DNA of 64,000 nucleotides from Rossellomorea marisflavi (GTDB lineage: Bacteria; Bacillota; Bacilli; Bacillales; Bacillaceae_B). The stretch lies in the NCBI RefSeq assembly GCF_009806575.1, contig NZ_CP047095.1, forward strand, positions 1,988,001 to 2,052,000. The letters run 5' to 3'. The position numbers were made by a program, and so were the translations under genes. The notes beneath the pieces were generated by a model. The model searched no databases. It was not told the origin of the DNA and was given only the letters and a program-made list of their open reading frames with translations. Positions 29,371 to 49,410 of the stretch are shown in pieces; positions within the stretch are counted from its first letter, which is position 1; each line of letters opens with the position of its first letter.

Positions 29371-29886
29371 TCATTGATGTCCACGCTGCATGCTTCTCAC
29401 GTAGCCTCGTTTTAGATCCAGGAACCTTTTCTTCAAGCGTTCGAGTGCCGCGACCACTTCAAGTTGCCTTTTCTTTTCCTCATATATAGAGGTGTTCAGC
29501 TTCCTGATCTCTTCATTCTTCTCGTCAATTATCCTTGTGAACTCTCCGAATTCCGCTTCCTTTTTGTGACGTTCCTTCACGAGCGCTGATTCCAGCTGCA
29601 TGACGTTTTCTTTCAGCTTTTCGACTTCAGTGGTATCGTTCTTCAAGATGCCTTCATTATCCCTGATAAGGAATGAGAGGCTGGGGCGTCCTACGTCTTC
29701 CTTTGCGATTCGCTCGCTCAGGCGCCTGTTTTCTTCCTTCAGCTCCTCGACTTGGCGCTTCAGGGTCAGGATGGCTTTTCTTGACTGAGTGGACTCCAAT
29801 GCTTCATATTCCTGTTTGAACCTTTGCATTTCCGATTTATAATGGATGATCAGCTGATTGAGCTGGATGGGATCGAGCCGATTCAT
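29371..29886 (-). CDS. Coiled-coil protein of unknown function
   Basis: The 171-residue protein is almost wholly coiled coil: long Glu/Lys/Leu heptads with few glycines or prolines. The basic C-terminus reads RGYVRSMQRGHQ. The ATG at 29886 is chosen because GAGAGGTG lies a few bases upstream on the minus strand; a more upstream ATG lacks a site. It ends shortly after the korB terminator and diverges from the Cys-rich gene at 30357. It is one of three coiled-coil proteins in the accessory block, so a structural role in an outer spore layer is possible. No family is recognised. Confidence 0.75.
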   Translation of the reverse strand: MNRLDPIQLNQLIIHYKSEMQRFKQEYEALESTQSRKAILTLKRQVEELKEENRRLSERIAKEDVGRPSLSFLIRDNEGILKNDTTEVEKLKENVMQLESALVKERHKKEAEFGEFTRIIDEKNEEIRKLNTSIYEEKKRQLEVVAALERLKKRFLDLKRGYVRSMQRGHQ

Positions 29887-30231: not shown

Positions 30232-30286
30232 ATATGGAATACCATGCCGGTTATATTTTTTTGAGGAATCTAGGTGTTTTCTCTAT

Positions 30287-30313
30287 ACCGATTCGCGATG
30301 CCCCCATAGGATA
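30287..30313 (+). promoter_or_regulatory. Candidate sigma-K promoter
   Basis: AC (30287), 16 bp, CATAGGATA (30305-30313). This fits the sigma-K pattern AC-N16-CATAnnnTA exactly. It is about 43 bp before the gene at 30357. Confidence 0.6.
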
Positions 30314-30356
30314 TAGTGTTAAATAAATATTCATGTAGACGAAAGGAAGGATTTGT

Positions 30357-31538
30357 TTGAATAAGCGTAAACAACTTAGGGGTTCCCAGACTCCTACGCC
30401 AACACCATCACCATCTCCTATTCCATTGGATCCCAATGATCTTGCTCCAGAATGTATTCGTGTCGACAAAGTATATGATTGGGTGTTTTATGCCAATCGA
30501 TACGAAAACAAAAACTTCATCCCTGATGAAGACTGCCGTGCAGCGGTCAGTGCAGCACTAGCGGCCGGCCAACGTGTGGAAGTACAAACGGCACCGGTTG
30601 ATCCTGCAAGTGTCAGTGTGACTGGTACCATCCTTGAAAACGGAAACCCGGGCCGCGTCCTGATCGTATGGACAGTCCCAGTAGAAGTCACTATCCTCAT
30701 CGCAGGTGTACCAGCGTGTACGTTCACAGTTCGGACTCAATTCACTGATGAGATCATGCTTTGTGTGCCGACTGGCATCACGAATGCCAACCTGAACATC
30801 CGTGCTACGCAAGTCATCGCGTCTTCCGGTGGCGTCCTAATGGGACCAGATCCATTCGGACCGATGATTCCGCTTCGTGTTGTCCTTTGTAAAGATGTTC
30901 AAGTGGAATTCCCTGTAAAGTTGGAAGTACTGGCTAAATTCTGCTTCCCGCGTCCAAACAACATTCCAGTACCAGAAGAGCAGCTTCAATGTGACTTGAG
31001 CCTTCTTGAATTCCCTCGTCAATGCCCTGGCTTGTTCCCTGTTGCAAACTGTGAGTGTCAAGGTACAGCTCTTGCGAGGAATGAAGATACCGAAGCCACA
31101 TTCGGCACTGGAGCAGCGGCTGAACTTGTTACAGGTCTATCCACTCTCAGAGCGGAAATCTGTCAAGAGTGTTCCCTTGGGGACAGCACATGGTCTTACT
31201 CCTTTGTTGATACGGAAGTTGGACCGACTCCTGCACCTACTGCAACTGGATTCCAACCGGACTTCAGCTTCAGCTTCAACCCGTCTTCCATTGACCGCGT
31301 AACATGTGGAACAGACGCATTGACTGCTGTCGGAGAAGGGATCCGCTACTTCGACGGCGCCCCTGAGCAATTGTTCTACGAACTTCAAATCTTCACAGGC
31401 TTGCTTGGACCGATTGCTGAAGGCTTCCGCCTGATCCTTCGTAACACTGCCAATGCCGTCATTTTCGACAGTGGAGTAGTAGAAGCTCTCGTTGAATTCA
31501 GCGAGTGTCAAACATTCAATGACCTATTGAACGGCTAA
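30357..31538 (+). CDS. Cys-rich protein with Thr/Pro/Ser tract, probable spore-surface protein
   Basis: A 393-residue protein with no recognised family. Residues 11-22 are TPTPTPSPSPIP, a mucin-like tract suited to O-glycosylation. The remainder is beta-rich and holds 14 cysteines spread through the chain, as in crosslinked coat or exosporium proteins. A second Pro/Thr stretch (VGPTPAPTATG) is near 300. It has no signal peptide. The TTG start has AAGGAAGG six bases upstream. The sigma-K promoter candidate argues for late mother-cell expression. The outer-spore-layer role is inference. Confidence 0.72.
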   Translation: MNKRKQLRGSQTPTPTPSPSPIPLDPNDLAPECIRVDKVYDWVFYANRYENKNFIPDEDCRAAVSAALAAGQRVEVQTAPVDPASVSVTGTILENGNPGRVLIVWTVPVEVTILIAGVPACTFTVRTQFTDEIMLCVPTGITNANLNIRATQVIASSGGVLMGPDPFGPMIPLRVVLCKDVQVEFPVKLEVLAKFCFPRPNNIPVPEEQLQCDLSLLEFPRQCPGLFPVANCECQGTALARNEDTEATFGTGAAAELVTGLSTLRAEICQECSLGDSTWSYSFVDTEVGPTPAPTATGFQPDFSFSFNPSSIDRVTCGTDALTAVGEGIRYFDGAPEQLFYELQIFTGLLGPIAEGFRLILRNTANAVIFDSGVVEALVEFSECQTFNDLLNG

Positions 31539-31543
31539 TGATT

Positions 31544-31576
31544 AGGGAGAGAGAGGAAACTCTCCCTCCTTTTTTT
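31544..31576 (+). terminator. Terminator after the Cys-rich gene
   Basis: AGGGAGA / TCTCCCT stem followed by CC and seven Ts. Confidence 0.85.
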
Positions 31577-31577
31577 A

Positions 31578-31604
31578 ACATGGAAAGAATCTGTACATAT
31601 GATG
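31578..31604 (+). promoter_or_regulatory. Candidate sigma-K promoter
   Basis: AC (31578), 16 bp, CATATGATG (31596-31604), one mismatch from CATAnnnTA. It lies immediately after a terminator and 30 bp before the next start, as expected for a new unit. Confidence 0.5.
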
Positions 31605-31633
31605 AAAGAAAAGGATCAATGGGGGTGTTGGCG

Positions 31634-32698
31634 ATGATGGAAAGGGACGATGGTGAGGCATTGAAGGCATTGGACGATATTCGGGTCATATCGGAAGAAG
31701 TGGAGTCGTTGTTCGGGGAATTGACAGAACGCGGTCCAGGCCGCATGGAGAAGGCAAGGATGCAGGAGGAAGCAGATGGCCGCAGGATCGTGGAATCCCT
31801 CCAGGCTCAACTGAAAGAATGGAAAACCAGGGAACGGGAGCAAGGTGAAGTGATCCTTGTCCTTAAACGAAAAATGGAACAGCTCAAGGAGAAGATCCAT
31901 CATGATCGAGTTGCGAGCGTGAAGCCATCGTCCCCTTCAGTGGAAGTCATCATGATCGAGAACAAGGGTCCGCACATGCTGAAAGCGGTGAAGGAAAGGG
32001 TTATGAAAGTCGTATATGAGGCACCATCCAGAAATTCATTTGTCAGGATCGACTGCGATAGTATGCTCATGGGTTTAGAGACGAACAAAAAGATGGTGGA
32101 GCTTTTTTATAAACAGATGAATTCCTATACAGAAAGGTGGAGATATACGATGTGGAATTTTTTATCCGGTAAGGAGCACGCCGAAATGAACGCTGAGGTT
32201 TTACAGAGGTTGGAAGAAATCGATGAGCAGCTTCGTGTATACTCATCGAAATTTATGGAAGTGAAGGAAGCGATAGCCGAACAGCAAAGCAGGAACGACT
32301 CCGCTCAAAACCATCTCACTGAAGTGAAGAAGATCCAGGAAGAAATCAATAAGATTGAAAGCTATTATGAGGAAGAGATCCAAAGCCTGAAGCAGCAGAT
32401 CGACCATTTCAAGGAGAGGGAAGGGGAGCTCCAACGGGAAATCACCCTTCTGCATGATCAGCAAAAAAATGCCCCCAAACAAAGTGCGAGGGAGCTTGAA
32501 CTGGAAGCTGAAGTTGAATCATTAAGGAGTAAAATCAAGCAACAATCGAACAAAAAAAATGATCTGTATAAGCAGATGAAGACCCAGAAGAAAGAGGAAG
32601 TCCCGCAGGTGAACCCGGAATTCGATGAGTATGGAAACATTCCCCTGCCCTCCGATTCCAAGAGGACGATGTTCAATCCGCAAAAGTACTTCCGATGA
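31634..32698 (+). CDS. Long coiled-coil protein of unknown function
   Basis: A 354-residue protein. The N-terminal third (to about 110) is coiled coil, a short globular part with VEVIMIENKGPHMLKAVKERV follows (about 115-180), and a long second coiled coil runs from about 195 to 330. The tail is PSDSKRTMFNPQKYFR. The ATG at 31634 has GGGGGTG six bases upstream; ATG 31619 has a site too close and would lie near the predicted transcription start. It heads a unit with the 44-residue peptide and the JAMM protease. A structural spore role is inferred. Confidence 0.72.
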   Translation: MMERDDGEALKALDDIRVISEEVESLFGELTERGPGRMEKARMQEEADGRRIVESLQAQLKEWKTREREQGEVILVLKRKMEQLKEKIHHDRVASVKPSSPSVEVIMIENKGPHMLKAVKERVMKVVYEAPSRNSFVRIDCDSMLMGLETNKKMVELFYKQMNSYTERWRYTMWNFLSGKEHAEMNAEVLQRLEEIDEQLRVYSSKFMEVKEAIAEQQSRNDSAQNHLTEVKKIQEEINKIESYYEEEIQSLKQQIDHFKEREGELQREITLLHDQQKNAPKQSARELELEAEVESLRSKIKQQSNKKNDLYKQMKTQKKEEVPQVNPEFDEYGNIPLPSDSKRTMFNPQKYFR

Positions 32699-32721
32699 CC
32701 CATGGAAGGGGGTGAAACATC

Positions 32722-32856
32722 ATGATGAAGAAAGATCAAAACCAAATCTACAGACAGAAAAAGAGCATTCCCATCGGCATTAAAAAAGAACAAAGGGAAA
32801 AAATCGCAGCAGAGCGCACCAAGTTCAAGTTTAAAGGGTGTGGGTGCAACGCATAA
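32722..32856 (+). CDS. 44-residue basic peptide ending in a Gly-Cys motif
   Basis: A short gene with an excellent ribosome site (GGGGGTG, seven bases before the ATG), 23 bp after the coiled-coil gene. The product is highly basic (MMKKDQNQIYRQKK...) and ends FKGCGCNA. The JAMM protease gene starts inside its last codons (17-base overlap), so the two are translationally coupled. No family is recognised. The two C-terminal cysteines could serve in crosslinking or metal binding. Confidence 0.7.
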   Translation: MMKKDQNQIYRQKKSIPIGIKKEQREKIAAERTKFKFKGCGCNA

Positions 32857-33250
32857 AGAATCAGTCATTCTTTCAAGGAATCTCTATAGCAGATTGATCC
32901 TGGAAGCGAAATCTTCCATGCCGAATGAAGCATGCGGACTCCTATCCGGAACCGGTTCACGATGCACGGGGGTTTGGCCGATGAGAAATACCGAACCATC
33001 CCCCTATTCCTTTGCCATAGATGAATCGGAGAAGGAACGTGCTGTTAGGGATATGCATGAACGCAATGAGACATTTATCGGATTGTACCATTCTCATCCG
33101 AATGGCCTGCCTGTCCCTTCGCAGGATGATATCGATCATGCACCAGATGTATTCTACTTCATTATTTCCGTCGGTGGCGCGGAAGAAGGAATCCGTTGCT
33201 ACAGAATCCGGGGGAGACAGGTCACACATCTGACCATCATTGTGGAATAA
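32840..33250 (+). CDS. JAMM/MPN metalloprotease-like protein (M67 family)
   Basis: The 136-residue single MPN domain has the complete JAMM zinc site: Glu30 (NEACGLLSG) and H84-S-H86-P-x6-S94-x2-D97. Bacterial members remove or process ubiquitin-like or sulfur-carrier proteins; no such carrier is encoded nearby. The GTG start overlaps the 44-residue peptide gene by 17 bases and has only AAAGG upstream, so translation depends on the peptide gene. A strong terminator follows. Its substrate may be a partner in this block, which is speculative. Confidence 0.85.
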   Translation: MGATHKESVILSRNLYSRLILEAKSSMPNEACGLLSGTGSRCTGVWPMRNTEPSPYSFAIDESEKERAVRDMHERNETFIGLYHSHPNGLPVPSQDDIDHAPDVFYFIISVGGAEEGIRCYRIRGRQVTHLTIIVE

Positions 33251-33275
33251 GAGTGCAATGGCACTCTTATTCCCA
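33245..33275 (+). terminator. Terminator after the JAMM gene
   Basis: GAATAAGAGTGC / GCACTCTTATTC stem, loop AATG. Confidence 0.78.
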
Positions 33276-33344
33276 TTTGTCTTCCTAACTGAAAGAGTAG
33301 ATTACGAGATTCGGTGAAACGCACAAGCGGTTTTCTCCTGTATG

Positions 33345-33353
33345 CATATAGTA
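33345..33353 (+). promoter_or_regulatory. Partial sigma-K-like -10 element
   Basis: CATATAGTA fits CATAnnnTA and lies 30 bp before the glycosyltransferase start. The nearest AC (33323) is 20 bp away, too far, so only the -10 is supported. Confidence 0.35.
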
Positions 33354-33383
33354 TAGAGAGACAAGCAGGAAAGAGGTGATTAT

Positions 33384-34082
33384 GTGAAAGTCTCAATCAT
33401 CATCCCATTTTACAATTGTCCCTATGTCGATCAGGCGATACGGAGTGCCATCCACCAAACCTATCCTGATCTTGAAGTCATTGTAGTGGACGATGGTTCT
33501 ACCAAGTTCACCGAGAAGATCGCACCGTATAAACATCGAATCAAATACATCCGAAAAGCGAACGGTGGAACGGCTTCAGCTCTTAATGAAGGTTTGCGGC
33601 ATGCAACGGGTCATTACTTTGCCTGGCTGAGCTCAGATGATCAATTTGTCGCAGATAAAATACAAAAGCAAGTGACGTTCATGCAGAGGAACGGATCAAG
33701 ACTCTCCTATACGGCCTTTAAAACCGTGGATTCAAACAATACGATTATTAGCGAAATACGTTCTGCACCCATGAGACATGGGACATTCAAGCAGCGGTTG
33801 CTTCAAGGGTGTCCAGTGAATGGATGCACGGTCATGGCAGAGATTGCCCTCATGAAGCAGGCAGGCTGGTTTGACGAAGGATATAAATATGCCCAGGACT
33901 ATGAAATGTGGTGCCGCCTCAGTTTGTTCACTCACATGCACTATTTCGATGAATCACTTGTGCTGTACCGAGTTCACCCTGGGATGGGTACGGCCCGTTT
34001 CGGAGGCGGTATTGCGAATGAAGCACAACAGATCCAACAAACGTACAGCAAGCTTTTCCAATCTGCCAAACGGAAAAAATAA
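33384..34082 (+). CDS. Family 2 glycosyltransferase
   Basis: The 232-residue cytosolic GT-A enzyme has no membrane segment. Motifs are VSIIIPFYNC (residues 3-12), VVDDGST, NGGTASALN and the metal-binding-type SSDDQF near 92. It is a close paralogue of the protein at 36621. The start is GTG, with AGAGGTG upstream. It transfers a sugar from a nucleotide donor; donor and acceptor are unknown. Context suggests spore-surface glycan. Confidence 0.88.
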   Translation: MKVSIIIPFYNCPYVDQAIRSAIHQTYPDLEVIVVDDGSTKFTEKIAPYKHRIKYIRKANGGTASALNEGLRHATGHYFAWLSSDDQFVADKIQKQVTFMQRNGSRLSYTAFKTVDSNNTIISEIRSAPMRHGTFKQRLLQGCPVNGCTVMAEIALMKQAGWFDEGYKYAQDYEMWCRLSLFTHMHYFDESLVLYRVHPGMGTARFGGGIANEAQQIQQTYSKLFQSAKRKK

Positions 34083-34091
34083 ATAGAGCCT

Positions 34092-34360
34092 GCTGGGACA
34101 AACGTGTTTTAGTCATAGTAAAACCCGAATTCATTTGCCTGCGATCAGGCAAAATAGTTCGGGTTTTTAATTTGTTTCATGACCATTACTCTTTTAGATT
34201 CTAGCGGTTGATTGGAGTGCAAGACGAAGACTCCTGTGGGAAGAGCGGCACCCTCAGGCATGCCGAGGAGGTTCACGGGCTACCCGCGGAAAGCAAAGTC
34301 TTGCACGGAAATCATTAGAGGTATACAGGACCTACATCGATAGTGTTCGTCATTAAATAA
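34092..34360 (+). repeat. Composite repeat, copy A
   Basis: Shares long near-identical segments with 49054-49267: GCTGGGACAA, a hairpin-terminator module starting CATAGTAAAACCCGAA, TTCATGACCATTAC, GAGGAGG-TCACGGGCTAC, TGCACGG and TGTTCGTCAT-AAAT. Copy A is longer in the middle (about 34200-34270). That part resembles, from memory, a repeat common in Bacillaceae (ACTCCTGTGGGA...GAGGAGG). No coding potential. Confidence 0.75.
34121..34168 (+). terminator. Terminator inside repeat copy A
   Basis: Outer stem AAACCCGAA / TTCGGGTTT and inner stem TTTGCCTG / CAGGCAAA, then Ts. It serves the glycosyltransferase at 33384 and may also act on the convergent epimerase gene. Confidence 0.8.
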
Positions 34361-34392
34361 TCCCATTTTAGTTTCTAGCAACCTCTTTCTTT

Positions 34393-35301
34393 CTATCGGC
34401 GGCGGAGCGTTTCAGAAATGCCCATGTCCATATCATACCGGTGAGCCCACCCAAGGGTCCGGTTGATCAAAGCCGGATCCAGACAGCTGTGTTTAATATC
34501 GCCGGGGCGATCCGCACCGTGCGTATAGGGGATGGATTGACCCGTGTGATTTTCAAGGGTCTTGATGACCTCGAGGAGTGATGTGGGGATACCGGTCCCT
34601 ACGACAAATGTGCCTACATCCTGAATATCCCCGGCCGCCCTGTTGGCTGAAACGATGTCTTGCACATACACATAGTCTCTCGTCTGCAATCCGTCTCCGT
34701 TCACCTTTAACGGTTCTCCTTTTGACAGTTTTTCGGTAAAGACGGCGATGACTCCGCCTTCCCCTTTTGCCGTCTGTCTGGGACCATACACATTCCCATA
34801 TCTTAAAATGGTGTAGGGAATGGAGAAGAGGTCGTGATAGAGTGTGATATAGCGCTCAGCCACCAGCTTCGAAAGCCCGTAGTAGGAAAGGGGAGAAACG
34901 GGAAGGTCCTCAGTGAGGACCGATTCAGGTGAATTCCCGTAGACAGCGGAAGTGGACGAAAAGACGAACTTTTTCAGTGACAGGCTCCTGCATGCTTCCA
35001 GGATGTTGATGGTTCCACCCACGTTCACCAACATATCCGTATGCGGGTCTTCCAATGACCGGTTCACATCTGCTTGTGCTGCAAGGTGATAGATGACATC
35101 CGGCTTGATGGAAGTGATCAGTTCCCTTGTTTCTTGAGAACTGATATCCAATTGGTGAAACGAAGCGGCATCAGGCAGATGCTCTAGTTTTCCGCTGCTC
35201 AGATCATCAATGATATGGACGTCTAAGCCGTCTTTGATAAGGCTGTCGGCCAGGTGGGAGCCGATGAAACCTGCTCCACCGGTTACAATTGCTTTTTTCA
35301 T
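34393..35301 (-). CDS. NAD-dependent sugar epimerase/dehydratase (GalE-like)
   Basis: The 302-residue extended SDR has TGGAGFIGSH (7-16), catalytic Ser/Thr in SSTSAVYG (115-117), and Tyr141-x3-Lys145 (YGLSK). It probably interconverts a UDP-sugar at C4. The ATG at 35301 has GAGGTG upstream on the minus strand; an upstream in-frame ATG lacks one. It has a sigma-K promoter candidate and lies in a minus-strand pair with the glycosyltransferase at 35378. Substrate is not determinable. Confidence 0.88.
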   Translation of the reverse strand: MKKAIVTGGAGFIGSHLADSLIKDGLDVHIIDDLSSGKLEHLPDAASFHQLDISSQETRELITSIKPDVIYHLAAQADVNRSLEDPHTDMLVNVGGTINILEACRSLSLKKFVFSSTSAVYGNSPESVLTEDLPVSPLSYYGLSKLVAERYITLYHDLFSIPYTILRYGNVYGPRQTAKGEGGVIAVFTEKLSKGEPLKVNGDGLQTRDYVYVQDIVSANRAAGDIQDVGTFVVGTGIPTSLLEVIKTLENHTGQSIPYTHGADRPGDIKHSCLDPALINRTLGWAHRYDMDMGISETLRRR

Positions 35302-35322
35302 AGTGTTCACCTCTGTTTTTAA

Positions 35323-35350
35323 TACACTATGCAAAGAAGCTGATTCGGGT
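35323..35350 (-). promoter_or_regulatory. Candidate sigma-K promoter of the epimerase gene
   Basis: On the minus strand: AC, 17 bp, CATAGTGTA, a full match to CATAnnnTA, about 22 bp before the ATG. Confidence 0.55.
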
Positions 35351-35377
35351 TGAACAGCACGCCCATGAAAAGTCGTT

Positions 35378-36448
35378 TTAGATGCCTAAAGTTCTGAGCA
35401 TGCCATTGAAGTGAATCCTATATGCTTCGTGACCAAACTGCGATTTAAGATGGAGAAGGGCGTTTTCGATGATGTACGATCGCAATTGTCCATCATCCAT
35501 CAGTTTCAGCCCCTGCTCGACTGCTGTCTGAACATTGCCGATCGAGTAGTATTTTCCCGTTTGGTTATGAAGGATAGTGCTCCTGATCCCATCTGAGTCT
35601 GATGTGAGGACGGGACATCTGCAACTCATCGCTTCCAAAGGTGAGTAAGGGGCCCCTTCGACCTTGGACGTGCAGCATAGAAACCCTCCGGAATCTCCGA
35701 TCTTCGAGAAAAAATGGGGCATCTGGGAATGTGGTACATTCTGTAGGAGATGAAGGTGTGCATCAAGATGATAGATGGATTTCAGTGTATTGAAATCCTG
35801 GCGTTCTTTAGGTGTGGAAAGGCTGGGATCTTCAAACATATATAGCTGGATTCCCGGCTTCCTCTTGATCATTTCGTGACCGATATGCAGGAACTCCCTC
35901 CAGTTTTTATTATCTTCCAACCTACCGATCCAGGCGATGATGGGGGAGGGATGTTTCGGGAGCGCCTTATAGGTGAAGGCATCCGCATCAAAGCAGTTAT
36001 TGAATCCGAATGTTGGGGTCCCGGGGAAAAACTCATTGAATATGGCACCTATATGCGGGGTTTTCGGATAGAGCAGCCCATCGCAGAATTGATTCACATA
36101 GGGGATCGCATTTCTCATTTCAGCCCTCGCTGTTGCCTGGGGACCATACCCCTGGATTTCTAATAGGATCTTCCCCTTGTAACCAAGTTTCCGGAAACGT
36201 TCCATTCCCCGGTAATCAGAAGTGATGATGACGGCATCGTATCGGCCTTTTTTCAGGATCCTCTGGATGTCGGCATCCTGATCGGCTATAAATACATTGG
36301 CTTCTTCATGGTTCAACAGATCCCGTTTCTTGCTGTAGTAGAGGAAGTCACACTGAATCCCTGCAGATTTTAATGCGGCAGCCCTCTGTCGATTCAGCGT
36401 TTCTACACCGCCGCTGGGTACATAGAAGACAAATAAAACGTTTAACAT
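35378..36448 (-). CDS. GT-B glycosyltransferase (GT4-like)
   Basis: The 356-residue protein has an N-terminal Rossmann-like half beginning VLFVFYVPSGGVETLNRQRA. The C-terminal donor-binding half has AWIGRLEDNKNWREF and the E-x7-E type motif EGAPYSPLEAMSCRCPVL. No membrane segment. AAAGGAGG lies six bases before the ATG. It lies 76 bp upstream of the epimerase gene on the same strand and is divergent from the gene at 36621. Its own promoter is unclear: AC-N16-CATA is present but the -10 is incomplete. Confidence 0.86.
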   Translation of the reverse strand: MLNVLFVFYVPSGGVETLNRQRAAALKSAGIQCDFLYYSKKRDLLNHEEANVFIADQDADIQRILKKGRYDAVIITSDYRGMERFRKLGYKGKILLEIQGYGPQATARAEMRNAIPYVNQFCDGLLYPKTPHIGAIFNEFFPGTPTFGFNNCFDADAFTYKALPKHPSPIIAWIGRLEDNKNWREFLHIGHEMIKRKPGIQLYMFEDPSLSTPKERQDFNTLKSIYHLDAHLHLLQNVPHSQMPHFFSKIGDSGGFLCCTSKVEGAPYSPLEAMSCRCPVLTSDSDGIRSTILHNQTGKYYSIGNVQTAVEQGLKLMDDGQLRSYIIENALLHLKSQFGHEAYRIHFNGMLRTLGI

Positions 36449-36620
36449 AGTATCCTCCTTTAACCGAATGGACTCATTGGTCCTTATTATCAGGTATATG
36501 TAAAATGCGGGAAGTTGTACAGGACATTCAGGGAATAACCATTGAAATCCCTGTTTTTACTGTCAACGGATACAAGCATGACATAGTATGGAGAAGAAAA
36601 GCTTATGAGGGGGTGAAAGG

Positions 36621-37328
36621 ATGGTTATGATTCCGAAAGTATCTATTATCATTCCGTTCTACAATTGTGCTTACGTGGATCAGGCAATCGAAAGCGCCCT
36701 CAATCAATCATATCCGTCAATCGAAGTGATTGTGGTGAATGATGGCTCCACCATGCATCTGGAAAAGCTTGAACCTTATGCAGATCGGATTTCGATTCTC
36801 CATAAAGTCAACGGAGGAACGGCAACGGCATTGAACTGGGGAATGGATACCGCTTCCGGGACCTATACCGCCTGGCTGAGTTCAGATGATCTATTCCTAC
36901 CGGAGAAGATTTCCCTGCAGGTAGAGTATATGGAGCGGAATCGGATCGACCTCTGCTTCAGTGATTATCTTCTTATCACGGATGCAGGAACAGAATGGAT
37001 GTGGTCGGTCAATGAATCCTTTGAGGAAATAAAAGGGCTTAAAGACGTGCTGTCGTATCGGAATCCCATTAATGGATCAACGATGCTCATGAAGAGGACG
37101 ATCTTCAGGGAAGCCGGATTCTTTGAACCGAAGTACCGCTTTACCCATGATTATGATATGTGGATGCGGCTGATGTTGAAGGGATACTCATTTGGTTACA
37201 TTCACCGGCCGCTTATTAAGTATCGCACCCATCCAGCGTCAGGCAGTATGAACCATCAGGCCGATATCCGTAGGGAAATGAATGATCTGCAGCTGCTATA
37301 CCGAGAAAAAAGGAGAGAAGAGGATTGA
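36621..37328 (+). CDS. Family 2 glycosyltransferase, paralogue of 33384
   Basis: The 235-residue GT-A enzyme has VSIIIPFYNC, VVNDGST, NGGTATALN and WLSSDDLF. These motifs are in the same order and spacing as in the 33384 protein, so the two arose by duplication. GGGGGTG precedes the ATG. It is the first gene of a plus-strand run reaching 39679. An incomplete sigma-K-like element (AC-N14-CATAGTATG, ending 36590) lies upstream. Its stop overlaps the next start. Confidence 0.87.
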   Translation: MVMIPKVSIIIPFYNCAYVDQAIESALNQSYPSIEVIVVNDGSTMHLEKLEPYADRISILHKVNGGTATALNWGMDTASGTYTAWLSSDDLFLPEKISLQVEYMERNRIDLCFSDYLLITDAGTEWMWSVNESFEEIKGLKDVLSYRNPINGSTMLMKRTIFREAGFFEPKYRFTHDYDMWMRLMLKGYSFGYIHRPLIKYRTHPASGSMNHQADIRREMNDLQLLYREKRREED

Positions 37329-38284
37329 GAGAGCTTATACTATCGGGAGCCACCCAGAAATCCGGACTTAAGAAGGATTGGGAACAGTTTAAAAAAGGCC
37401 TGGTCCTTTCGTTTCACACCAAAACCCAGCAGATACAAAAGGTGATTGAATATACCTCCCCAAAGGAAGTTTGTGCAGAAGATGAGCCCTCTATATCGTT
37501 CACGGCTGCCACGTTGAGGAAGAACAAGCTCTATGTTCCAACGCATACCGAAATATTGGTATACGATTTGAATACCTATCGGCTCGAGAAATATTTCACA
37601 TATCCTTCATTGAATGATGTCCATCACGTGTATCCAAGAAACAATGGGAATCTGCTTATTTGTAACACCGGGCTTGATATGGTGATCGAGACGTCCCCTA
37701 AAGGTGTGATCCTGAACGAATGGAATGTAGGCAGAGGGGGGCCATGGAAAAGTTTTGATCCGTCGATCGACTACCGGAAAGTCCCTACCACCAAACCCCA
37801 TAAACATCATCCGAACTTTGTGTTTGAACTGGACGATGAAATATGGGTGACAAGATGCCTGCAGAAAGACGCGATCTGTTTGACCGATCCTTGGAAAGAG
37901 ATAACGATCGGCAGGCAGCTCATCCATGACGGAGTCCTTTATAAGAACCATCTTTATTTCACGCAGGTGGACGGCCACATTATCAAAGTGAATGCAGGGA
38001 GCCTGCAGGTCGTTCAGGACATCGACCTCTCAACCGTGGCTTCACACGAGGAAAAACTGGGGTGGTGCAGGGGCATCAGACCGCTTACAGAGGATATCAT
38101 CCTTGTTGGCTTCACACGGATCAGACCGTCAAGCAGGGTGAATGAAGACGGATCCAGGGAATATTACGGGCAGCATGGTGTCCTTCCAACCCGAATAGCC
38201 TGTTATAACATCAAGGAAATGGTTTTGATGTGGGAGAAGGATCTTGAGCCTTATGATATGAATGCCATCTATTCTATTAGCTGA
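37325..38284 (+). CDS. Probable beta-propeller protein of unknown function
   Basis: A 319-residue protein with repeated short beta segments of the type LYVPTHTEILVYDLNTYRLEK, LLICNTGLDMVIE and LYFTQVDGHIIKVNAG. This suggests a propeller fold. No signal peptide or catalytic motif is recognised. The TTG start overlaps the upstream stop (GATTGA), with GGAGAG upstream, so it is coupled to the glycosyltransferase gene. Position inside a glycan cluster suggests a sugar-binding or modifying role, unproven. Confidence 0.75.
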   Translation: MRELILSGATQKSGLKKDWEQFKKGLVLSFHTKTQQIQKVIEYTSPKEVCAEDEPSISFTAATLRKNKLYVPTHTEILVYDLNTYRLEKYFTYPSLNDVHHVYPRNNGNLLICNTGLDMVIETSPKGVILNEWNVGRGGPWKSFDPSIDYRKVPTTKPHKHHPNFVFELDDEIWVTRCLQKDAICLTDPWKEITIGRQLIHDGVLYKNHLYFTQVDGHIIKVNAGSLQVVQDIDLSTVASHEEKLGWCRGIRPLTEDIILVGFTRIRPSSRVNEDGSREYYGQHGVLPTRIACYNIKEMVLMWEKDLEPYDMNAIYSIS

Positions 38285-38303
38285 TTAAAGGAGAGTGGAA
38301 GAG

Positions 38304-38462
38304 TTGTTGCCCAGAAAAAATACGTACCGACATCCCGGCAGGAGTGTTCCCATTTCAGCTAAAAAACCGCTACCGAAACCCCAAACGAATACCCCTCCGA
38401 GATATGCCATCCCCGATCCCAGGTTGAGAGAAGTGCTCGACCGGTATGCAGGGGAGTGGTGA
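38304..38462 (+). CDS. Small Pro/Arg-rich protein
   Basis: A 52-residue gene with AAGGAG about ten bases before a TTG start, filling the gap between the propeller gene and the glycosyltransferase gene, which starts three bases later. The product is basic and proline-rich (KKPLPKPQTNTPPRY), with a helical tail LREVLDRYAGEW. No family is recognised. Spacing and ribosome site support a real gene. Confidence 0.6.
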   Translation: MLPRKNTYRHPGRSVPISAKKPLPKPQTNTPPRYAIPDPRLREVLDRYAGEW

Positions 38463-38465
38463 ACG

Positions 38466-39679
38466 ATGAAAATCTTGATCGCTACCATCTTCCCATTACC
38501 GGGGGGAGGTATTTGGTCATTTGTGTCCCACCTTCATGATGGTCTTGTCGCGCAAGGACACTCCGTCGATATCATCTGCTCGAACCACACCAATACACAG
38601 GTATTGAATCTCTTAAAAGGGAATACAGTCGAACTTGTGCCCTTCCGTCCCATGATTGAGCGAAAGCTGAGGAAGTCCATTCCGAAATTGATCCAGCACC
38701 CATGGGTTTATCATGCTGAAGTGAACAGGTATCAATTTGAAAGGGGACTGACAGAGCTTGATTTGTCACAATATGACCTCATCCACTGTCAGGATGTCCT
38801 TTCTGCGGTATCGATCAGCAGGATGAAACCTGCACGTACCCCCATGGTCACGTCCATCCACGGTTTTTTGTCCGGGGCGATCTTCCATCAAATCAAAGCC
38901 ACTAATCCCGGCATCGCCGATGATGATATCTGGAACAGTTTCGTCCTTCAGTACTACGCCAGATTGGAAAAAATCGGCTATGACAGCAGTGCATGCCTCC
39001 ATACTTCAAGCAGATGGATGCGGGGGATCCTGCTGAATCAATACAGCGTTCCCTCTCGTAAGATCATGACCTTCAACTATGGGGTCCCGATTGAACAGTT
39101 CCCTGCATACTCGGGACAGCGTCCATCCGGTAAATGCACGATTGTGGCCATCAGCAGATTGGTCTACCTCAAAGGCCTTCATCACCTTCTTGAGTCCCTA
39201 GAAATGCTCTCCCCGTCGTTGGATTGGGAATGCCAGATCCTCGGGAGGGTGAGATGAAGGATAAACTGATGGACCAGGCTAGACAGCTTGGAATCGATTC
39301 AAAGGTGAACTTCCTTGGAAATCGGAACGATGTTGTACAAATCCTGCAGATGGCGGATGTTCTGGTGATTCCGAGTCTCCAGGAAAATCAGCCGTTTGCG
39401 GTTATTGAAGCACAAATGATGGGAGTACCGGTGATTGCATCCAATGCAGGCGGACTTCCTGAAATGGTGGAGCACCAAGCAACGGGCCTGATCGTGGAAA
39501 AAGCGAATAGCCATCAGCTCTCCAGGGCATTGGATCATATCATCCGTCACCCTGCAGAGCGGGACCGGATGGGACAGCAGGCATGGAAAATGAGCAGGGA
39601 AAAATGGGGTCTTGCATCTCTCATTGAGAATGCTTCAGCATTCTATCAGTCAGCGATGAACACGAACATCAAGACCTGA
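38466..39679 (+). pseudogene. GT4-family glycosyltransferase disrupted by a frameshift
   Basis: Two reading frames join into one GT-B enzyme of about 404 residues. The first (38466-39257) holds the acceptor half (ATIFPLPGGGIWSFVSHLHDG) and the first donor strand (IVAISRLVYLKGLHHLLE). It ends at ECQILGRVR. The second frame resumes at GEMKDKLMDQARQLG and carries the donor motif ENQPFAVIEAQMMGVPVIAS. One G appears to be missing in the run at 39243-39245 (family pattern ILGxGEM). The remainder is intact, so a recent mutation, slippage or sequencing error is likely. Confidence 0.85.
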
Positions 39680-39719
39680 TCTATCCGCCCTTTTATTGAA
39701 ACAGTGAGAAGAGTCTAGG

Positions 39720-39746
39720 ACAGCTCCCGCTTTCTATCATAATGTA
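39720..39746 (+). promoter_or_regulatory. Candidate sigma-K promoter of the UDP-sugar operon
   Basis: AC (39720), 16 bp, CATAATGTA (39738-39746), a full match to the sigma-K pattern, 30 bp before the first gene of a four-gene operon. Confidence 0.62.
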
Positions 39747-39776
39747 TTAAGACGAAACAGAAAGGAGAGCTCACAG

Positions 39777-40871
39777 GTGAAAATCGTTACAGTACTGGGG
39801 ACAAGGCCGGAGATCATAAGGCTGAGCCTCATCATGAAAAAGCTTGATCAGCTTGCCGATCGGCATGTCATCGTGCACACAGGGCAGAACTTCACCCACT
39901 CACTGAACGGGGTGTTTTATCAGGAGCTTGGTCTGCGTGCACCCGACTACGTCCTGTCGGATAAGCAGCAGTCCCTCGGAAAGCAGCTATCCGCCCTCTA
40001 TGAAGGACTCGAAGACATTCTGATCCGTGAGAAGCCGGATAAAGTGCTTGTGCTTGGCGACACGAACAGCGGGCTGAGTGCCATCCTGGCAGAGCGGATG
40101 ATGATTCCTGTCGTCCATATGGAAGCAGGGAACCGCTGCTTCGATCTGAATGTACCGGAAGAGAAGAATCGAAAGATCATCGATTCTGTCTCATCATTCA
40201 ATCTTGTCTATACCCCTTATAGCAAAACCAATCTTCTCAATGAAGGAATGACACCAAGCAAAATCATCACAACAGGCAACCCCATCTATGAAGTATTGAA
40301 GCACTATGAATCGAACATTGATGACAGCACCATCCTTACAGGCCTTTCATTGAAAGAAAGGGACTACTTCTTGGCCACGATCCACAGGGCAGAAAACGTA
40401 GACAACCCCGACCATCTTACCTCCATCATCCAAGCCATGAACCGCATAGCTGCCACCTACAAAAAAAGAATCATCTTCAGCGCGCATCCGAGAACACGTT
40501 CCAAGTTATTGGCCATGCCCCACCTATCCATCGATCCGAGAATTGAATTCCATGAGCCTTTCGGATTCTTTGATTTTATTCAGCTCGAAAAAAAGGCGTA
40601 CTGCGTTTTGACCGACAGCGGGACTGTCCAGGAAGAATGCTGTATCTTCCATGTGCCGGCCGTCACAGTCAGGAAGACGACCGAGAGACCGGAAACCGTC
40701 GATTGTGGCAGCAACTTCATTTCCGGCCTGGAGGAAGCAAACATCGTGAATGGTGTCAAAGTCATGTGTTCCAAGGCTGCAAATTGGCATTGTCCTGCAG
40801 AATACTTGGATGAACATGTGTCGGATAAAGTGATCAATATACTTTTAGGAGGTACAGAAATTGTTTACTAA
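39777..40871 (+). CDS. Non-hydrolysing UDP-GlcNAc 2-epimerase-like enzyme (WecB/CapG type)
   Basis: The 364-residue GT-B-fold epimerase has VLGTRPEIIRLS at the N-terminus, GDTNSGL, HMEAGNRCFD and PEEKNRKIID. Such enzymes invert C2 of UDP-GlcNAc or of 6-deoxy derivatives. Being next to a CapE-like dehydratase and an RmlD-like reductase suggests a CapG-type role on a UDP-6-deoxy-HexNAc. The start is GTG, with AAAGGAG upstream. It overlaps the next gene by 11 bases. Confidence 0.88.
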   Translation: MKIVTVLGTRPEIIRLSLIMKKLDQLADRHVIVHTGQNFTHSLNGVFYQELGLRAPDYVLSDKQQSLGKQLSALYEGLEDILIREKPDKVLVLGDTNSGLSAILAERMMIPVVHMEAGNRCFDLNVPEEKNRKIIDSVSSFNLVYTPYSKTNLLNEGMTPSKIITTGNPIYEVLKHYESNIDDSTILTGLSLKERDYFLATIHRAENVDNPDHLTSIIQAMNRIAATYKKRIIFSAHPRTRSKLLAMPHLSIDPRIEFHEPFGFFDFIQLEKKAYCVLTDSGTVQEECCIFHVPAVTVRKTTERPETVDCGSNFISGLEEANIVNGVKVMCSKAANWHCPAEYLDEHVSDKVINILLGGTEIVY

Positions 40872-41853
40872 TAAAACAATCCTAGTGACGGGAGGAACGG
40901 GATCATGGGGGAACGAGCTCGTATCCCAGCTTCTCGAGAAAAATCCGAAGGAAATCAGGATTTTCTCCCGGAATGAAACGAGTCAGGTACTGACAAAGCA
41001 GAAATTCGAGAACGATCCACGACTGACGTTCCTGATCGGGGACGTGCGGGATAAGGAGGCGGTGATGGAGGCGGCTCAGAAAGTCGATTATATCTTTCAT
41101 CTTGCTGCACTTAAACATGTACCGGTCTGCGAGCATCAGCCTCTTGAGGCACTGAAGACGAATGTGATGGGTACCCAGAATATCATCGATGCCGCCATTG
41201 AGAATGAAGTGGAAAAAGTGATCAATATCTCCACTGACAAAGCGGCGAATCCCTCCAATTTCTACGGTTTTACGAAAGCCATGGGGGAGAAACTGATCAT
41301 CAATGCCAATGTCCTGACCGATAAAACGAAATTTGTGTGCGTACGGGGAGGAAATGTACTGGGGACAAACGGAAGCGTCATCCACGTCTTCAAGCATGGA
41401 ATCAAGGAAAAGTCGAAAATCGGGATAACGGATAAAAACATGACCCGTTTCTTCCTCACGATCAAAGACGCCATCAAGCTGTTGTTCAAGGCCACCTATG
41501 AAAGCCACGGAGGAGAAATTTTCGTCATGAAGATGCCGACGTGCAAGATCATGGATCTGGCTCAAGTACTCATCGATCGATATTCACCTGATCAGGAAGT
41601 GACAGTGGAAGAACTCGGGATCCGACCGGGAGAAAAACTGCATGAATTACTTCTGACGGAATTTGAAAGTCACAATACCATTGTATATGACAACGAATAC
41701 TTCGTGATTTTACCTACGATCCATATCGAAGGGCTGACGGAATTCTACAAAGATTTTCCACAGGTGGATCTCGATACGTATTCTTCCAGCGATAACATCA
41801 TCAATTACGATCAGATCAAGTCCATGCTGAAGGACGGGGGCTTCTTGGAATGA
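40861..41853 (+). CDS. UDP-N-acetylglucosamine 4,6-dehydratase/5-epimerase-like (CapE/WbjB/FnlA)
   Basis: The 330-residue extended SDR of the polysaccharide-biosynthesis dehydratase family has TGGTGSWGNEL near the N-terminus, STDKAANPSNFYGFTKA with the Tyr-x3-Lys pair, and GIRPGEKLHE. It is predicted to make a 4-keto-6-deoxy UDP-HexNAc. The TTG start has AGGAGGT seven bases upstream. It overlaps both neighbours, so the operon is translationally coupled. Confidence 0.88.
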   Translation: MFTNKTILVTGGTGSWGNELVSQLLEKNPKEIRIFSRNETSQVLTKQKFENDPRLTFLIGDVRDKEAVMEAAQKVDYIFHLAALKHVPVCEHQPLEALKTNVMGTQNIIDAAIENEVEKVINISTDKAANPSNFYGFTKAMGEKLIINANVLTDKTKFVCVRGGNVLGTNGSVIHVFKHGIKEKSKIGITDKNMTRFFLTIKDAIKLLFKATYESHGGEIFVMKMPTCKIMDLAQVLIDRYSPDQEVTVEELGIRPGEKLHELLLTEFESHNTIVYDNEYFVILPTIHIEGLTEFYKDFPQVDLDTYSSSDNIINYDQIKSMLKDGGFLE

Positions 41854-42665
41854 AAATCCTCGTATTGGGAGGCAGGGGCATGGCAGGCCATGTCATCACT
41901 TCCTATATGAAAAAGCAGGGACACGATGTCCTGTACACCACACGGAATGAAGATGGGATCCAACTTGATGTAACCAGCCTTGCAGGTGTACGGAATGTCA
42001 TCCTGAGCCACAAGCCGGATGTGCTCATCAACGCCGTCGGTCTCCTGAATGAAGATGCAGAGGCAAGGCTGAAGGATGCCATCATCGTGAACGGGCTCCT
42101 GCCCCATTATTTGACGGAAGTCCTTGATGAATATGGAGGGAAACTTGTCCATATCAGTACGGACTGCGTCTTTTCAGGAGAAAAGGGCAGCTATGTCGAG
42201 GATGATGAAAAGGACGGCACCACCGCCTATTCGAAGACGAAGTCGATCGGTGAGGTGACCCGGTCCCCCCATCTGACGGTCAGGACCTCGATCATCGGAC
42301 CTGAATTAAAAGAGAATGGAATCGGCCTCTTTCACTGGTTCATGAAGCAAAAAGGGGAAATAAAAGGATACGCGAATGTGTTCTGGAACGGTGTGACCAC
42401 TCTGGAACTTGCCAAGGCAATCGATCACCTGATCCAAGCCGGTGCAACAGGACTCTATCATCTATGCACGCCGGGCAGAATCAGCAAGTATGAGCTGCTT
42501 CAGCTTTTCAAGGAAACTCTTCAAAAAGATGATGTGACCATTACCCCTTCTTTGACACCGGTTCATGATAAAACGCTTGTTCATACGCGAAACGACGTTC
42601 ATTTTCACGTTCAGGACTACAAAAGCATGCTCTCAGAAATGGTCGAATGGATGCGGCAAAAATGA
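41850..42665 (+). CDS. RmlD-like 4-keto-sugar reductase
   Basis: The 271-residue SDR resembles dTDP-4-dehydrorhamnose reductase: GGRGMAGHVI at the N-terminus, HISTDCVFSG, and AYSKTKSIGE with Tyr-x3-Lys. It likely reduces the 4-keto group of the CapE product. Unlike CapF of the FucNAc pathway, it lacks a C-terminal cupin domain, so the final sugar may differ from UDP-L-FucNAc. ATGA overlaps occur at both ends. Confidence 0.86.
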   Translation: MKILVLGGRGMAGHVITSYMKKQGHDVLYTTRNEDGIQLDVTSLAGVRNVILSHKPDVLINAVGLLNEDAEARLKDAIIVNGLLPHYLTEVLDEYGGKLVHISTDCVFSGEKGSYVEDDEKDGTTAYSKTKSIGEVTRSPHLTVRTSIIGPELKENGIGLFHWFMKQKGEIKGYANVFWNGVTTLELAKAIDHLIQAGATGLYHLCTPGRISKYELLQLFKETLQKDDVTITPSLTPVHDKTLVHTRNDVHFHVQDYKSMLSEMVEWMRQK

Positions 42666-43528
42666 AACGCGTCCTAGTGACAGGGGCATCGGGATTCACC
42701 GGGCGTCATGCTTGTGCCTTGTTCGCTAGCATGGGTCACGCTGTATACGGCCTTGTAAGGACACCTACGATGATGAAAGACGTGACGCTAGTTCATTGTG
42801 ACCTCATGGATGAACAGCAGGTCCAGAGGGTGGTGGAAGAGGTGAAACCCGACATCACCCTGCATCTGGCTGCGCAAAATCATGGTGGTATATCCTGGGA
42901 GAAACCTGCTCTTACGTTCCGCATAAATGTAGTGGGTACCCTGAATCTTTTGGAAGCCTTGAGGATCAGCGCACCAGATTCCGTGATGCTGGTCACGGGA
43001 TCGGTACTTGAATGGAACGCGGGCTCCATGCCGGCCCATCCCTATGGCGTATCGAAGGTCATGCAGACAGCCCTTGCTTCCTCTTGGTCACAGCTATTCG
43101 GCTTGGATGTGCGAATTGCCCGCTCTTCTAATTTATGCGGTCCTGGTGAATCCACGGGCATCTGTTCCCTGTTAGCCAGAAGCTGTGTTGAAGGGAAGGA
43201 AGCATTTCACTTTTCCAATATACTCGATCAGAGGGATTTCCTGGATGTCAGGGATGCGGTTCGTGCCTATGCAAGGATTATTACAGATGGTGAGCGCGAA
43301 GGGGATTATACTGTAGCCTCCGGTCGGAACCGGACCCTCCTGGAAGTGGCAAGGGAAACAAGGGATATAGCCGGTAGCGGAATCTCCTTCACCACAGACG
43401 CCTTTCAGCACACTTTCCAGGAAGTGTATTCCACGAGGGGAATCCGGGCGTTGGGGTGGGAACCAGTTATTCCGTTCAAGCAGACGCTTGCAGATATCCA
43501 TGACTATATGAATAAAACAAAAAGGTAA
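42662..43528 (+). CDS. NAD-dependent epimerase/reductase (GDP-6-deoxymannose reductase-like)
   Basis: The 288-residue extended SDR has TGASGFTGRHA (residues 7-17), LVTGSVLEW and HPYGVSK as the catalytic Tyr-x3-Lys. It resembles RMD-type reductases and GalE-like epimerases; the donor nucleotide is not clear. The ATG at 42662 overlaps the upstream stop (ATGA); an in-frame ATG at 42647 would add five residues. It is the last gene of the sugar-nucleotide operon. Confidence 0.84.
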   Translation: MKRVLVTGASGFTGRHACALFASMGHAVYGLVRTPTMMKDVTLVHCDLMDEQQVQRVVEEVKPDITLHLAAQNHGGISWEKPALTFRINVVGTLNLLEALRISAPDSVMLVTGSVLEWNAGSMPAHPYGVSKVMQTALASSWSQLFGLDVRIARSSNLCGPGESTGICSLLARSCVEGKEAFHFSNILDQRDFLDVRDAVRAYARIITDGEREGDYTVASGRNRTLLEVARETRDIAGSGISFTTDAFQHTFQEVYSTRGIRALGWEPVIPFKQTLADIHDYMNKTKR

Positions 43529-43548
43529 TCGGAGACGATTACCTTTTT
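43519..43548. terminator. Bidirectional terminator
   Basis: AAAAGGTAATCG / CGATTACCTTTTT with GAGA loop, between convergent genes; A-runs and T-runs on both sides serve both strands. Confidence 0.9.
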
Positions 43549-43563
43549 GCCGTTCCATAGGAA

Positions 43564-44445
43564 TCAGAAGTAGATGGAGAATTTCTTGAACAGTGTTTCA
43601 ATACTGGTCTTCCTCTTCTTCATATACTCTGTTCGTTTTTTGAGAACCCCATCCTGGAGCACCCTTCGATCAATCTTGATGGGAGAACCATGAACAATGA
43701 GAGATTTGGCCCTTTCGATCCGCGCATCGTCAAAATGGAGATAGGCCATTCTCATAAGGTTGTAGTAGATTCCCTCGTAGTTTACGTTGTACGGATGGGC
43801 CGTCCTGAACAAATGAAGGATCGTGACCGTGGGATCGCAGTGGCAACGGTAACCGAAAAGCCACAGTTTGATCGAAATTTCTACATCTTCGTGCCCCCAC
43901 GAATAAAATCCGGGTTCAAATCCGCCAATATCGTCAAACGTCTCTTTCTTCATAACAATGCACGCACCGGGAAGGATGGCTGTTTCAAAAAGCGCACGGC
44001 CCCTGGGATTCCATTTGATTTTCAGGGAAGGAGTCAGAGATTGGCCGTAGCCCACGATGGAAGGGTCCTCCAGCGAACCGATGGCTGGACAAACGGCATC
44101 GGTTACCCCGCTTGCCACCGGATAGACAAGGCGGTCCAACCAGAAATTCTCAAAGGTCATATGGGCATCGCAAAAAGCGATATAGGGGTAGTTGGCAGCA
44201 TCCGCCCCCAGATTCCTGGCAACAGATGGCCCCACCCCTTCTGCCCGCACATAGGTCACTTTTTGTTTATGTTCATAGGTGGAAAGGAAGGCGAAGCCAT
44301 CATCAGTGGAGGCATCGTCCACAAGGATTGCCTCGACCTCGACATTTGTCTTGACGCTGAAAAGGGAATCCAACGTCATCTTTACATTCTTGCCTTCGTT
44401 CTTCACAGGGAATACAACGGAAACTTTGGGTATATGCCTGCTCAT
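43564..44445 (-). CDS. GT2 glycosyltransferase resembling polypeptide GalNAc-transferases
   Basis: The 293-residue GT-A enzyme has VSVVFPVKNEGKN at the N-terminus, CDAHMTF at 92-98 (a D-x-H metal motif, Asp93/His95) and YSWGHEDVEISIKLW at 181-195. The D-x-H motif and the WGxEDxE(I/L)S element are the hallmarks of eukaryotic polypeptide GalNAc-transferases (GT27) and related GT2 enzymes. No lectin domain or membrane anchor. AAAGGAG precedes the ATG. It has a sigma-K promoter candidate. A protein acceptor is plausible but unproven. Confidence 0.85.
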   Translation of the reverse strand: MSRHIPKVSVVFPVKNEGKNVKMTLDSLFSVKTNVEVEAILVDDASTDDGFAFLSTYEHKQKVTYVRAEGVGPSVARNLGADAANYPYIAFCDAHMTFENFWLDRLVYPVASGVTDAVCPAIGSLEDPSIVGYGQSLTPSLKIKWNPRGRALFETAILPGACIVMKKETFDDIGGFEPGFYSWGHEDVEISIKLWLFGYRCHCDPTVTILHLFRTAHPYNVNYEGIYYNLMRMAYLHFDDARIERAKSLIVHGSPIKIDRRVLQDGVLKKRTEYMKKRKTSIETLFKKFSIYF

Positions 44446-44476
44446 ATCGACGCTCCTTTGCTACTTGCCTCTGAAT

Positions 44477-44503
44477 CAGTGTATGTCGCTCCGGTCCGAC
44501 CGT
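44477..44503 (-). promoter_or_regulatory. Candidate sigma-K promoter (possible sigma-E overlap)
   Basis: Minus strand: AC, 16 bp, CATACACTG, one mismatch from CATAnnnTA. CATACACT also fits the sigma-E -10, but no good sigma-E -35 is seen. Confidence 0.45.
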
Positions 44504-44558
44504 GAATCATGCAATTAACATAAGTCGCAAAAGGAGTTCATAAGATGAGTATTGGGTG

Positions 44559-45731: not shown

Positions 45732-45772
45732 AGCCGCCCTGGTTGAAATCAATCGGGGCGGCTGCTTGTTAT
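45732..45772. terminator. Hairpin between convergent genes
   Basis: AGCCGCCC plus GGTTGA pair with TCAATC plus GGGCGGCT, followed by GCTTGTT. Confidence 0.65.
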
Positions 45773-49366: not shown

Positions 49367-49410
49367 ACAGTATCTCGCAACAATCCTTTCATGCAATCCA
49401 ATTTACTCGC

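Follow-up and report, generated by a model that had tools for sequence, protein, structure and literature searches.

The interval between korB and miaB in a 64,000-nucleotide stretch of the Rossellomorea marisflavi genome (contig NZ_CP047095.1, positions 1,988,001 to 2,052,000; this whole stretch is referred to as the window, within a genome of 4.55 Mb) very probably represents a locus that is read by sigma-K RNA polymerase in the late mother cell and that serves a glycosylated outermost layer of the spore. The block, i.e. the korB-miaB interval, comprises about 20 genes, including a morphogenetic spore coat protein gene (at 30357), glycosyltransferase and nucleotide-sugar genes, and several of these genes are preceded by the sigma-K-type element AC-N16/17-CATAnnnTA. 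The coat protein of the window is 100% identical to a protein of R. marisflavi JCM 11544. An original prediction, made from the letters of the DNA, had placed a late-sporulation sigma-K module between korB and miaB, and this proposal is supported by the position and conservation of the element, the coat protein, the nearby cotE and the glycan genes. The case for the promoters is made from position and conservation, not from raw motif counts.

Promoter elements in the window

The five elements that had been predicted are all present, three of them exact and two with one mismatch, and the spacer is 16 nt in four of the five, as had been said (Table 1). The elements end 44, 30, 22, 31 and 32 nt before the start codons of the genes at 30357, 31634, 35301, 39777 and 44445, respectively. 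The 120-nt upstreams of the 60 called genes of the window were compared with dinucleotide shuffles (n=5000): an exact element was found for 3 of the 19 block genes vs none of the 41 other genes, and the shuffled block upstreams gave a mean of 0.042 genes with an exact element, with no shuffle in 5000 attaining three. Equal frequency in shuffled intergenic DNA, named beforehand as an outcome that would speak against the module, was thus not observed, and the orthologous upstreams described below behaved likewise. The element of cotE, an internal positive control, falls slightly beyond the 120-nt limit. Among 48 letter permutations of the pattern, the true order alone reached more than one block gene; when spacers of 4–44 nt were scanned in 160-nt upstreams, N16 reached two genes and N17 one, and of the other 39 spacings seven reached one gene and none more than one.

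Conservation of the element in relatives

The comparison covered 61 genomes of relatives and, in addition, 31 named loci. Exact elements were counted in distinct 150-nt upstreams of orthologues, with duplicates in the last 80 nt counted once. The coat gene (27/34 exact; no more than one -10 mismatch in any of the 34), the genes for the coiled-coil proteins coilB (16/27) and coilC (4/8; the window copy is without one), the right-end glycosyltransferase GT2c (15/20 exact; 20/20 with at most one mismatch) and cotE (2/2) are preceded by the element, and the promoter of the coat gene persists down to approximately 60% protein identity, with diverging spacer sequence. It is found upstream of 30357 orthologues in Rossellomorea, Metabacillus, Salibacterium, Pontibacillus, Melghiribacillus, Cytobacillus, Alteribacillus and Aliibacillus. 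Exact elements concentrate at the first genes of transcription units and are nearly absent at interior genes (JAB 0/31, dehydratase 0/16, sdr 0/15, RmlD 1/17); none was found for coilA (0/6) or for the flanking genes korB (0/2), miaB (0/2) and ymcA (0/3). Within 120 nt, and with identical upstreams counted once, the element precedes 79 of 393 block-interval genes in the relatives' loci vs 1 of 288 genes outside in the same loci, which supports the assignment of the block to sigma-K. From the computed elements and their conservation we infer a dependence on sigK and several short transcription units that would be read by SigK RNA polymerase: 30357; coilB with a 44-amino-acid (44-aa) gene and the JAB gene; the epimerase gene; a nucleotide-sugar operon (39777–43528); and GT2c.

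The same counts bear on the alternative that sigma-K reads the coat, coiled-coil, GT2c and coilC genes only, and that the sugar genes of the middle are constitutive or otherwise controlled. The middle genes have exact elements less often (galE 4/21, wecB at 39777 3/16, GT2a 2/22), which speaks for such a division; however, they exceed the shuffle expectation (galE 4 vs 0.25; wecB 3 vs 0.05; the glycosyltransferase gene at 35378, with 1/18 exact, 11/18 vs 3.2 at one mismatch or less), and of the 89 block-interval genes of relatives for which the window block has no homologue, five carry an exact element vs the single one of 288 outside. We consider this restricted regulon unlikely.

A second alternative makes the block an early mother-cell locus, transcribed by sigma-E. 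Sigma-K and sigma-E have a common -10 and differ in the -35 (C vs T), as described in PMC517825, where the mapped sigma-K promoter of sps and the sigma-K control of cotE P2 are also given; the genome contains sigK (373.8 bits; cut-off 298.65) and a second match to the sigma-K model (266 bits) that is probably sigma-E. The distinguishing -35 base is C, however: of 140 distinct CATAnnnTA sites in upstreams, 80 have AC at a spacing of 16 or 17 vs 13 of 190 sites within genes (Fisher 2e-24, for orthologous sites, which are not independent), and 13 of the 140 have the sigma-E-type AT. The spacing also matches that of sigK-dependent promoters of Bacillus thuringiensis, such as CAC-N16-CATATGTTA upstream of bclA in the data given in PMC4750369. 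Transcription by sigma-E is very improbable.

GerE probably joins SigK at the coat gene. A 74-aa GerE-family open reading frame (ORF) is present in the genome, and the word TRGGY, a possible GerE box whose consensus a literature look-up did not confirm, occurs in 28 of 35 promoters of coat orthologues no more than 32 nt above the -35 (shuffle expectation 6.4). It was also found above three of five galE elements (expectation 0.8) and above none of three wecB elements.

A number of observations weigh against the assignment to sigma-K. TRGGY is absent above the coilB (0/17) and GT2c (0/18) elements. Genome-wide, the exact N16 pattern has 60 matches and the reversed pattern 144; there is no excess, and the raw motif count as proof of a sigma-K regulon was dropped for this reason. 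CATAnnnTA by itself is at chance level in the window (17 observed, 14.4 expected). Of the first 30 genome matches by position, seven are followed by a sense ORF at a distance of up to 150 nt (30357, 39777, cotE, a gerPA-family gene, and genes for a cupin protein, a PrpF protein and a small helix-turn-helix-like protein, the last by eye), 14 lie inside called genes and nine are intergenic without such an ORF; the cotE and gerPA hits among them speak for sigma-K. The two one-mismatch elements are not significant by themselves (approximately 0.1 per upstream in shuffles), and no exact element was found in orthologues of GT2b (0/5), 37325 (0/16), the split glycosyltransferase (0/17) and 44556 (0/14). 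The sugar genes galE and wecB are tied less firmly than the coat gene and GT2c, their elements being found chiefly in the window and in the two relatives closest to it. Exact matches are also lacking at the coat gene of the close relatives L032 and L059 (CATAGGATG) and of L073, L075 and L088 (no CATA; AAATAGGAT). The coat upstreams of L056 and L089 gave no exact match either; in L089 the coat match begins at residue 28, so that the region read is not upstream.

Genes of the block and flanks

The predicted features are summarized in Table 1. The coat protein was assigned to NF052457 with 76.2 bits (cut-off 71) over residues 33–228 of 393. Coat-family-like domains were also found at G000:C1:1016820-1017395 and 1024590-1025189, in frames that stay open for 2533 and 2573 codons, the second match with an internal stop.

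Table 1. Promoter elements, genes and other predicted features of the korB-miaB block and its flanks (window positions)
Feature	Position	Strand	Basis
TAGGT, candidate GerE box 5' of coat -35	30271..30275	+	TRGGY word
Sigma-K-type promoter, coat protein gene	30287..30313	+	exact, N16
Terminator-like inverted repeat and T run, immediately 5' of coilB promoter	31545..31576	+	by eye
Sigma-K-type promoter, coilB gene	31578..31604	+	N16, one mismatch, CATATGATG
Sigma-K-type promoter, epimerase (galE) gene	35323..35350	-	exact, N17
Sigma-K-type promoter, nucleotide-sugar operon	39720..39746	+	exact, N16
Sigma-K-type promoter, GT2c	44477..44503	-	N16, one mismatch, CATACACTG
Same element upstream of cotE (internal positive control)	49341..49367	+	pattern match
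coilA, coiled-coil protein, divergent from coat gene, no family, weakly conserved	29371..29886	-	synteny
Morphogenetic spore coat protein of the BMQ_0737 family, with TTG start codon and TP-rich stretches	30357..31538	+	NF052457, alignment
coilB, coiled-coil protein	31634..32698	+	no Pfam family; syntenic in relatives
Unannotated 44-aa basic protein ending KGCGCNA	32722..32856	+	conserved small ORF; coding signature
JAB/M67 metallopeptidase	32840..33250	+	PF14464, 71.5 bits
GT2a, family 2 glycosyltransferase	33384..34082	+	PF00535
NAD-dependent sugar epimerase, GalE-like (galE)	34393..35301	-	PF01370; TIGR01179 below cut-off
Glycosyltransferase	35378..36448	-	PF00534
GT2b, family 2 glycosyltransferase	36621..37328	+	Pfam
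Protein without Pfam/NCBIfam match, accompanies glycosyltransferases	37325..38284	+	syntenic in relatives
PF00534-type glycosyltransferase, two pieces in different frames	38466..39679 (38466-39257, 39224-39679)	+	Pfam
Non-hydrolysing UDP-N-acetylhexosamine (UDP-HexNAc) 2-epimerase (wecB)	39777..40871	+	TIGR00236, 277 bits; 7ya2 (CapG), 324 bits
UDP-GlcNAc 4,6-dehydratase family	40861..41853	+	PF02719
RmlD-like reductase	41850..42665	+	PF04321
Short-chain dehydrogenase/reductase (SDR) sugar reductase (sdr); top solved match GDP-6-deoxy-D-lyxo-4-hexulose reductase	42647..43528	+	structure-database match
GT2c, family 2 glycosyltransferase, constant right-end gene	43564..44445	-	PF00535
Partner protein of coat family, conserved C-terminal domain approx. 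230-390, no family	44556..45728	+	co-occurrence
coilC, coiled-coil protein, right end	45769..46830	-	synteny
CotE	49469-50005	+	PF10628, 288 bits

The 44-aa ORF lies between coilB and the JAB gene, has a good ribosome site and overlaps the start of the JAB gene. A similar small ORF is present in all but 2 of 55 relative rows (L054 and L081, both from one organism); many genomes are represented by two rows, and in some rows the resemblance is loose. Among 19 distinct 44-aa copies, substitutions number 998, 952 and 3240 by codon position, and synonymous changes account for 2322 of 4042 differing codons, compared with 243 of 4094 and 365 of 4069 when the other frames are read. The annotation of NZ_CP089998.1 lists no gene at this position.

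Both pieces of the split glycosyltransferase (38466–39679) fall in one frame in every relative compared, and the split may represent a recent break or a sequencing error. A tRNA-Sec call by ARAGORN (40296-40384), inside wecB on the opposite strand, was judged false; no RNA families were found in window positions 28000–50500.

Proposed sugar pathway and search for export genes

The best solved matches of the protein at 39777 are CapG (324 bits), two UDP-GlcNAc 2-epimerase entries (289 and 276 bits) and others at 213, 153 and at most 129 bits; those of 40861 are a FlaA1-type UDP-GlcNAc C6 dehydratase (259 bits), CapD (246 bits) and CapE (232 bits), with the PseB and FnlA models below their cut-offs. 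A CapF-type reductase was rejected for 41850, and no plain N-acetyl-L-fucosamine (L-FucNAc) pathway is claimed, because NF047837 is not among the matches listed for this protein; an L-quinovosamine-type pathway is a possible lead. Since the matches of 39777 and 40861 spread over several enzymes, the sugar is named tentatively: UDP-GlcNAc would be converted to a 2-acetamido-2,6-dideoxy-L-sugar by the 4,6-dehydratase, the RmlD-like reductase and the CapG-like 2-epimerase in the mother-cell cytoplasm. Soluble glycosyltransferases would then assemble the glycan on the growing surface, perhaps at the TP-rich stretches of the coat protein, an acceptor and a layer that we infer.

No flippase, polymerase or ABC exporter was seen in the window block by Pfam or hydropathy, and no protein of the block has three or more hydrophobic segments in the hydropathy scan (52451, outside the block, has six); in the stretches of 16 relatives, not all of which reach coilC, the proteins with at least three such segments are SLC13-type permeases. 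An absent transporter fits a glycan that is made in the mother-cell cytoplasm, and no flippase or ABC exporter would be required because the spore surface faces the cytoplasm in which the sugars are made. That the block instead makes a capsule, an exopolysaccharide or a wall glycan in vegetative cells and contains promoter-like words by chance is hardly credible: its kinds of enzymes are those of capsule loci (CapG is the nearest solved relative of 39777) and the pattern is in no genome-wide excess, but export and polymerase genes are not seen, the coat protein gene and cotE are close by, and the promoters are conserved.

Architecture across relatives

The gene order that recurs in many relatives is korB, coilA (in many cases so diverged that no match is obtained), coat, coilB and JAB on the left and GT2c, 44556, coilC, miaB, ymcA and cotE on the right. 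The middle is window-like in some loci. In L037 it is of a DegT/UDP-sugar dehydrogenase/GFO/hexapeptide type, L048 has a pyruvyl-transferase type, L045 and L047 have a sulphotransferase type, and in L035 and L043 it is a single glycosyltransferase; the arrangement deviates in L051-L053, L054, L056, L057 and in the loci of other genera. All 27 genomes that have a close orthologue of the coat protein contain GT2c (E 1e-50), vs 2 of the remaining 34. At thresholds of E 1e-10 for 44556 and E 0.001 for the coat protein, relatives of the two occur together in 38 of the 61 genomes, each alone in one, and neither in 21; two G011 fragments and those coat-family matches that lie within giant frames were excluded, which leaves the genome counts unaffected owing to other matches there. 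Where a 44556 relative is present (39 genomes), it lies at most 3 kb from the coat match in 12 and 3–25 kb away in 23, and four are on a separate contig or unpaired.

The coat match is missing in eight genomes of the same genus, for which korB was located in seven and six korB-miaB intervals were read: three contain coilC alone, one is empty, one contains coilC with other genes, and that of L141 contains other genes, including GT2c-like and sugar genes; coilC is thus retained in four of the six. An actin-like protein is found in the korB-miaB interval of L123 (9800-11380, PF17989; together with a DUF7852 protein), L127 (4677-6256) and L141 (13408-14979; the last two by eye).

Plasmid transfer of the locus was considered and rejected: the single plasmid hit, NZ_CP089998.1 (690 kb), carries recA, pgsA, miaB and cotE and is probably a piece of a chromosome.

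Sulphation cassette in relatives

Genes for ATP sulphurylase, an SLC13-type permease, adenosine 5'-phosphosulphate (APS) kinase or CysQ are present in 14 of the 24 loci L031-L054, some of which are cut by the end of the stretch. The loci with these genes for the supply of 3'-phosphoadenosine-5'-phosphosulphate (PAPS) are L034, L036, L038-L042, L044-L047, L049, L050 and L054; L048 has a short sulphurylase fragment, and in L045 CysQ, apsK and sopT score above their NCBIfam cut-offs. Sulphotransferase family matches were obtained in three protein sets for 4/7 (L034 with two, L044, L049), 1/8 (L045) and 0/10, and no PAPS or sulphotransferase families were seen in the Pfam matches of the window block. 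No exact sigma-K element precedes the cassette in the upstreams of 6 ATP sulphurylase, 12 APS kinase, 13 CysQ and 9 permease genes, several of whose starts are cut or doubtful, and the link of the cassette to sporulation is for this reason drawn mainly from location; CATAAAATA or CATAAACTA is found upstream of the sulphurylase gene in L045, L047, L125, L128 and L129.

A serotype-like hotspot is a tentative extension of these observations, and one about which we are rather doubtful. A fixed frame, with the coat gene, coilB, the 44-aa GCGC peptide and JAB on the left and GT2c, the 44556 partner and coilC on the right, might hold exchangeable sugar cassettes; many relatives might make a sulphated spore glycan through mother-cell PAPS supply and sulphotransferases, and JAB might trim the small peptide or link it into the layer.

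Comparison with known systems and meaning

To our knowledge, the spore-surface glycan loci described so far belong either to B. subtilis or to the B. cereus group. In B. subtilis, sps and spsM provide a spore-surface glycan that is made in the mother cell under sigma-K, as described in PMC517825, PMC7439481 and PMC4191935. The present locus resembles sps/spsM (crust glycan, legionaminic acid) as a sigma-K-type spore-surface glycan locus, with glycosyltransferase and nucleotide-sugar genes in the block as in an sps-type locus, and with a PF02719 dehydratase in both. However, sps is one 11-gene operon, whereas several short units lie around a coat protein here, with CapG/RmlD-type amino-sugar enzymes, constant ends and an exchangeable middle; NeuB-like or CMP-sugar enzymes of the legionaminic acid pathway are not among the Pfam/NCBIfam matches listed for the block, with the NCBIfam lists of four proteins comprising 25 matches each. 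That the enzymes differ from those of sps, as originally predicted, holds with one exception: 40861 falls in PF02719, the family of SpsM according to PMC4191935.

The coat protein belongs to the same NCBIfam family as BMQ_0737 of B. megaterium, though just above the cut-off, and is linked to glycan genes here; in B. megaterium, according to PMC4656864, BMQ_0737-GFP is one of the outermost spore proteins. The exosporium genes of B. thuringiensis and the B. cereus group (bclA, exsY) share the SigK consensus, with a spacer of 16 at bclA and bclB and with GerE for some, in the data given in PMC4750369, whereas no collagen-like protein was found here in the Pfam matches of 18 window proteins scanned. 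With O-antigen and capsule loci the block shares constant edges, exchangeable sugar cassettes at one site and CapG-/CapE-like enzymes, and it differs from them by its sporulation-type promoters and by the export and polymerase genes that are not seen. No report of a locus with late promoters, a constant frame and swappable sugar cassettes was found in open-access titles and abstract openings.

Spore-surface glycans influence adhesion and wetting, as stated in PMC4191935 and PMC7439481. A locus of this kind, with conserved late promoters and with interchangeable cassettes in a constant frame, would account for the divergence of spore surfaces between close species; if the sulphation cassette does act at this locus, the spores would bear sulphated glycans. 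Such a locus would also supply direct gene targets.

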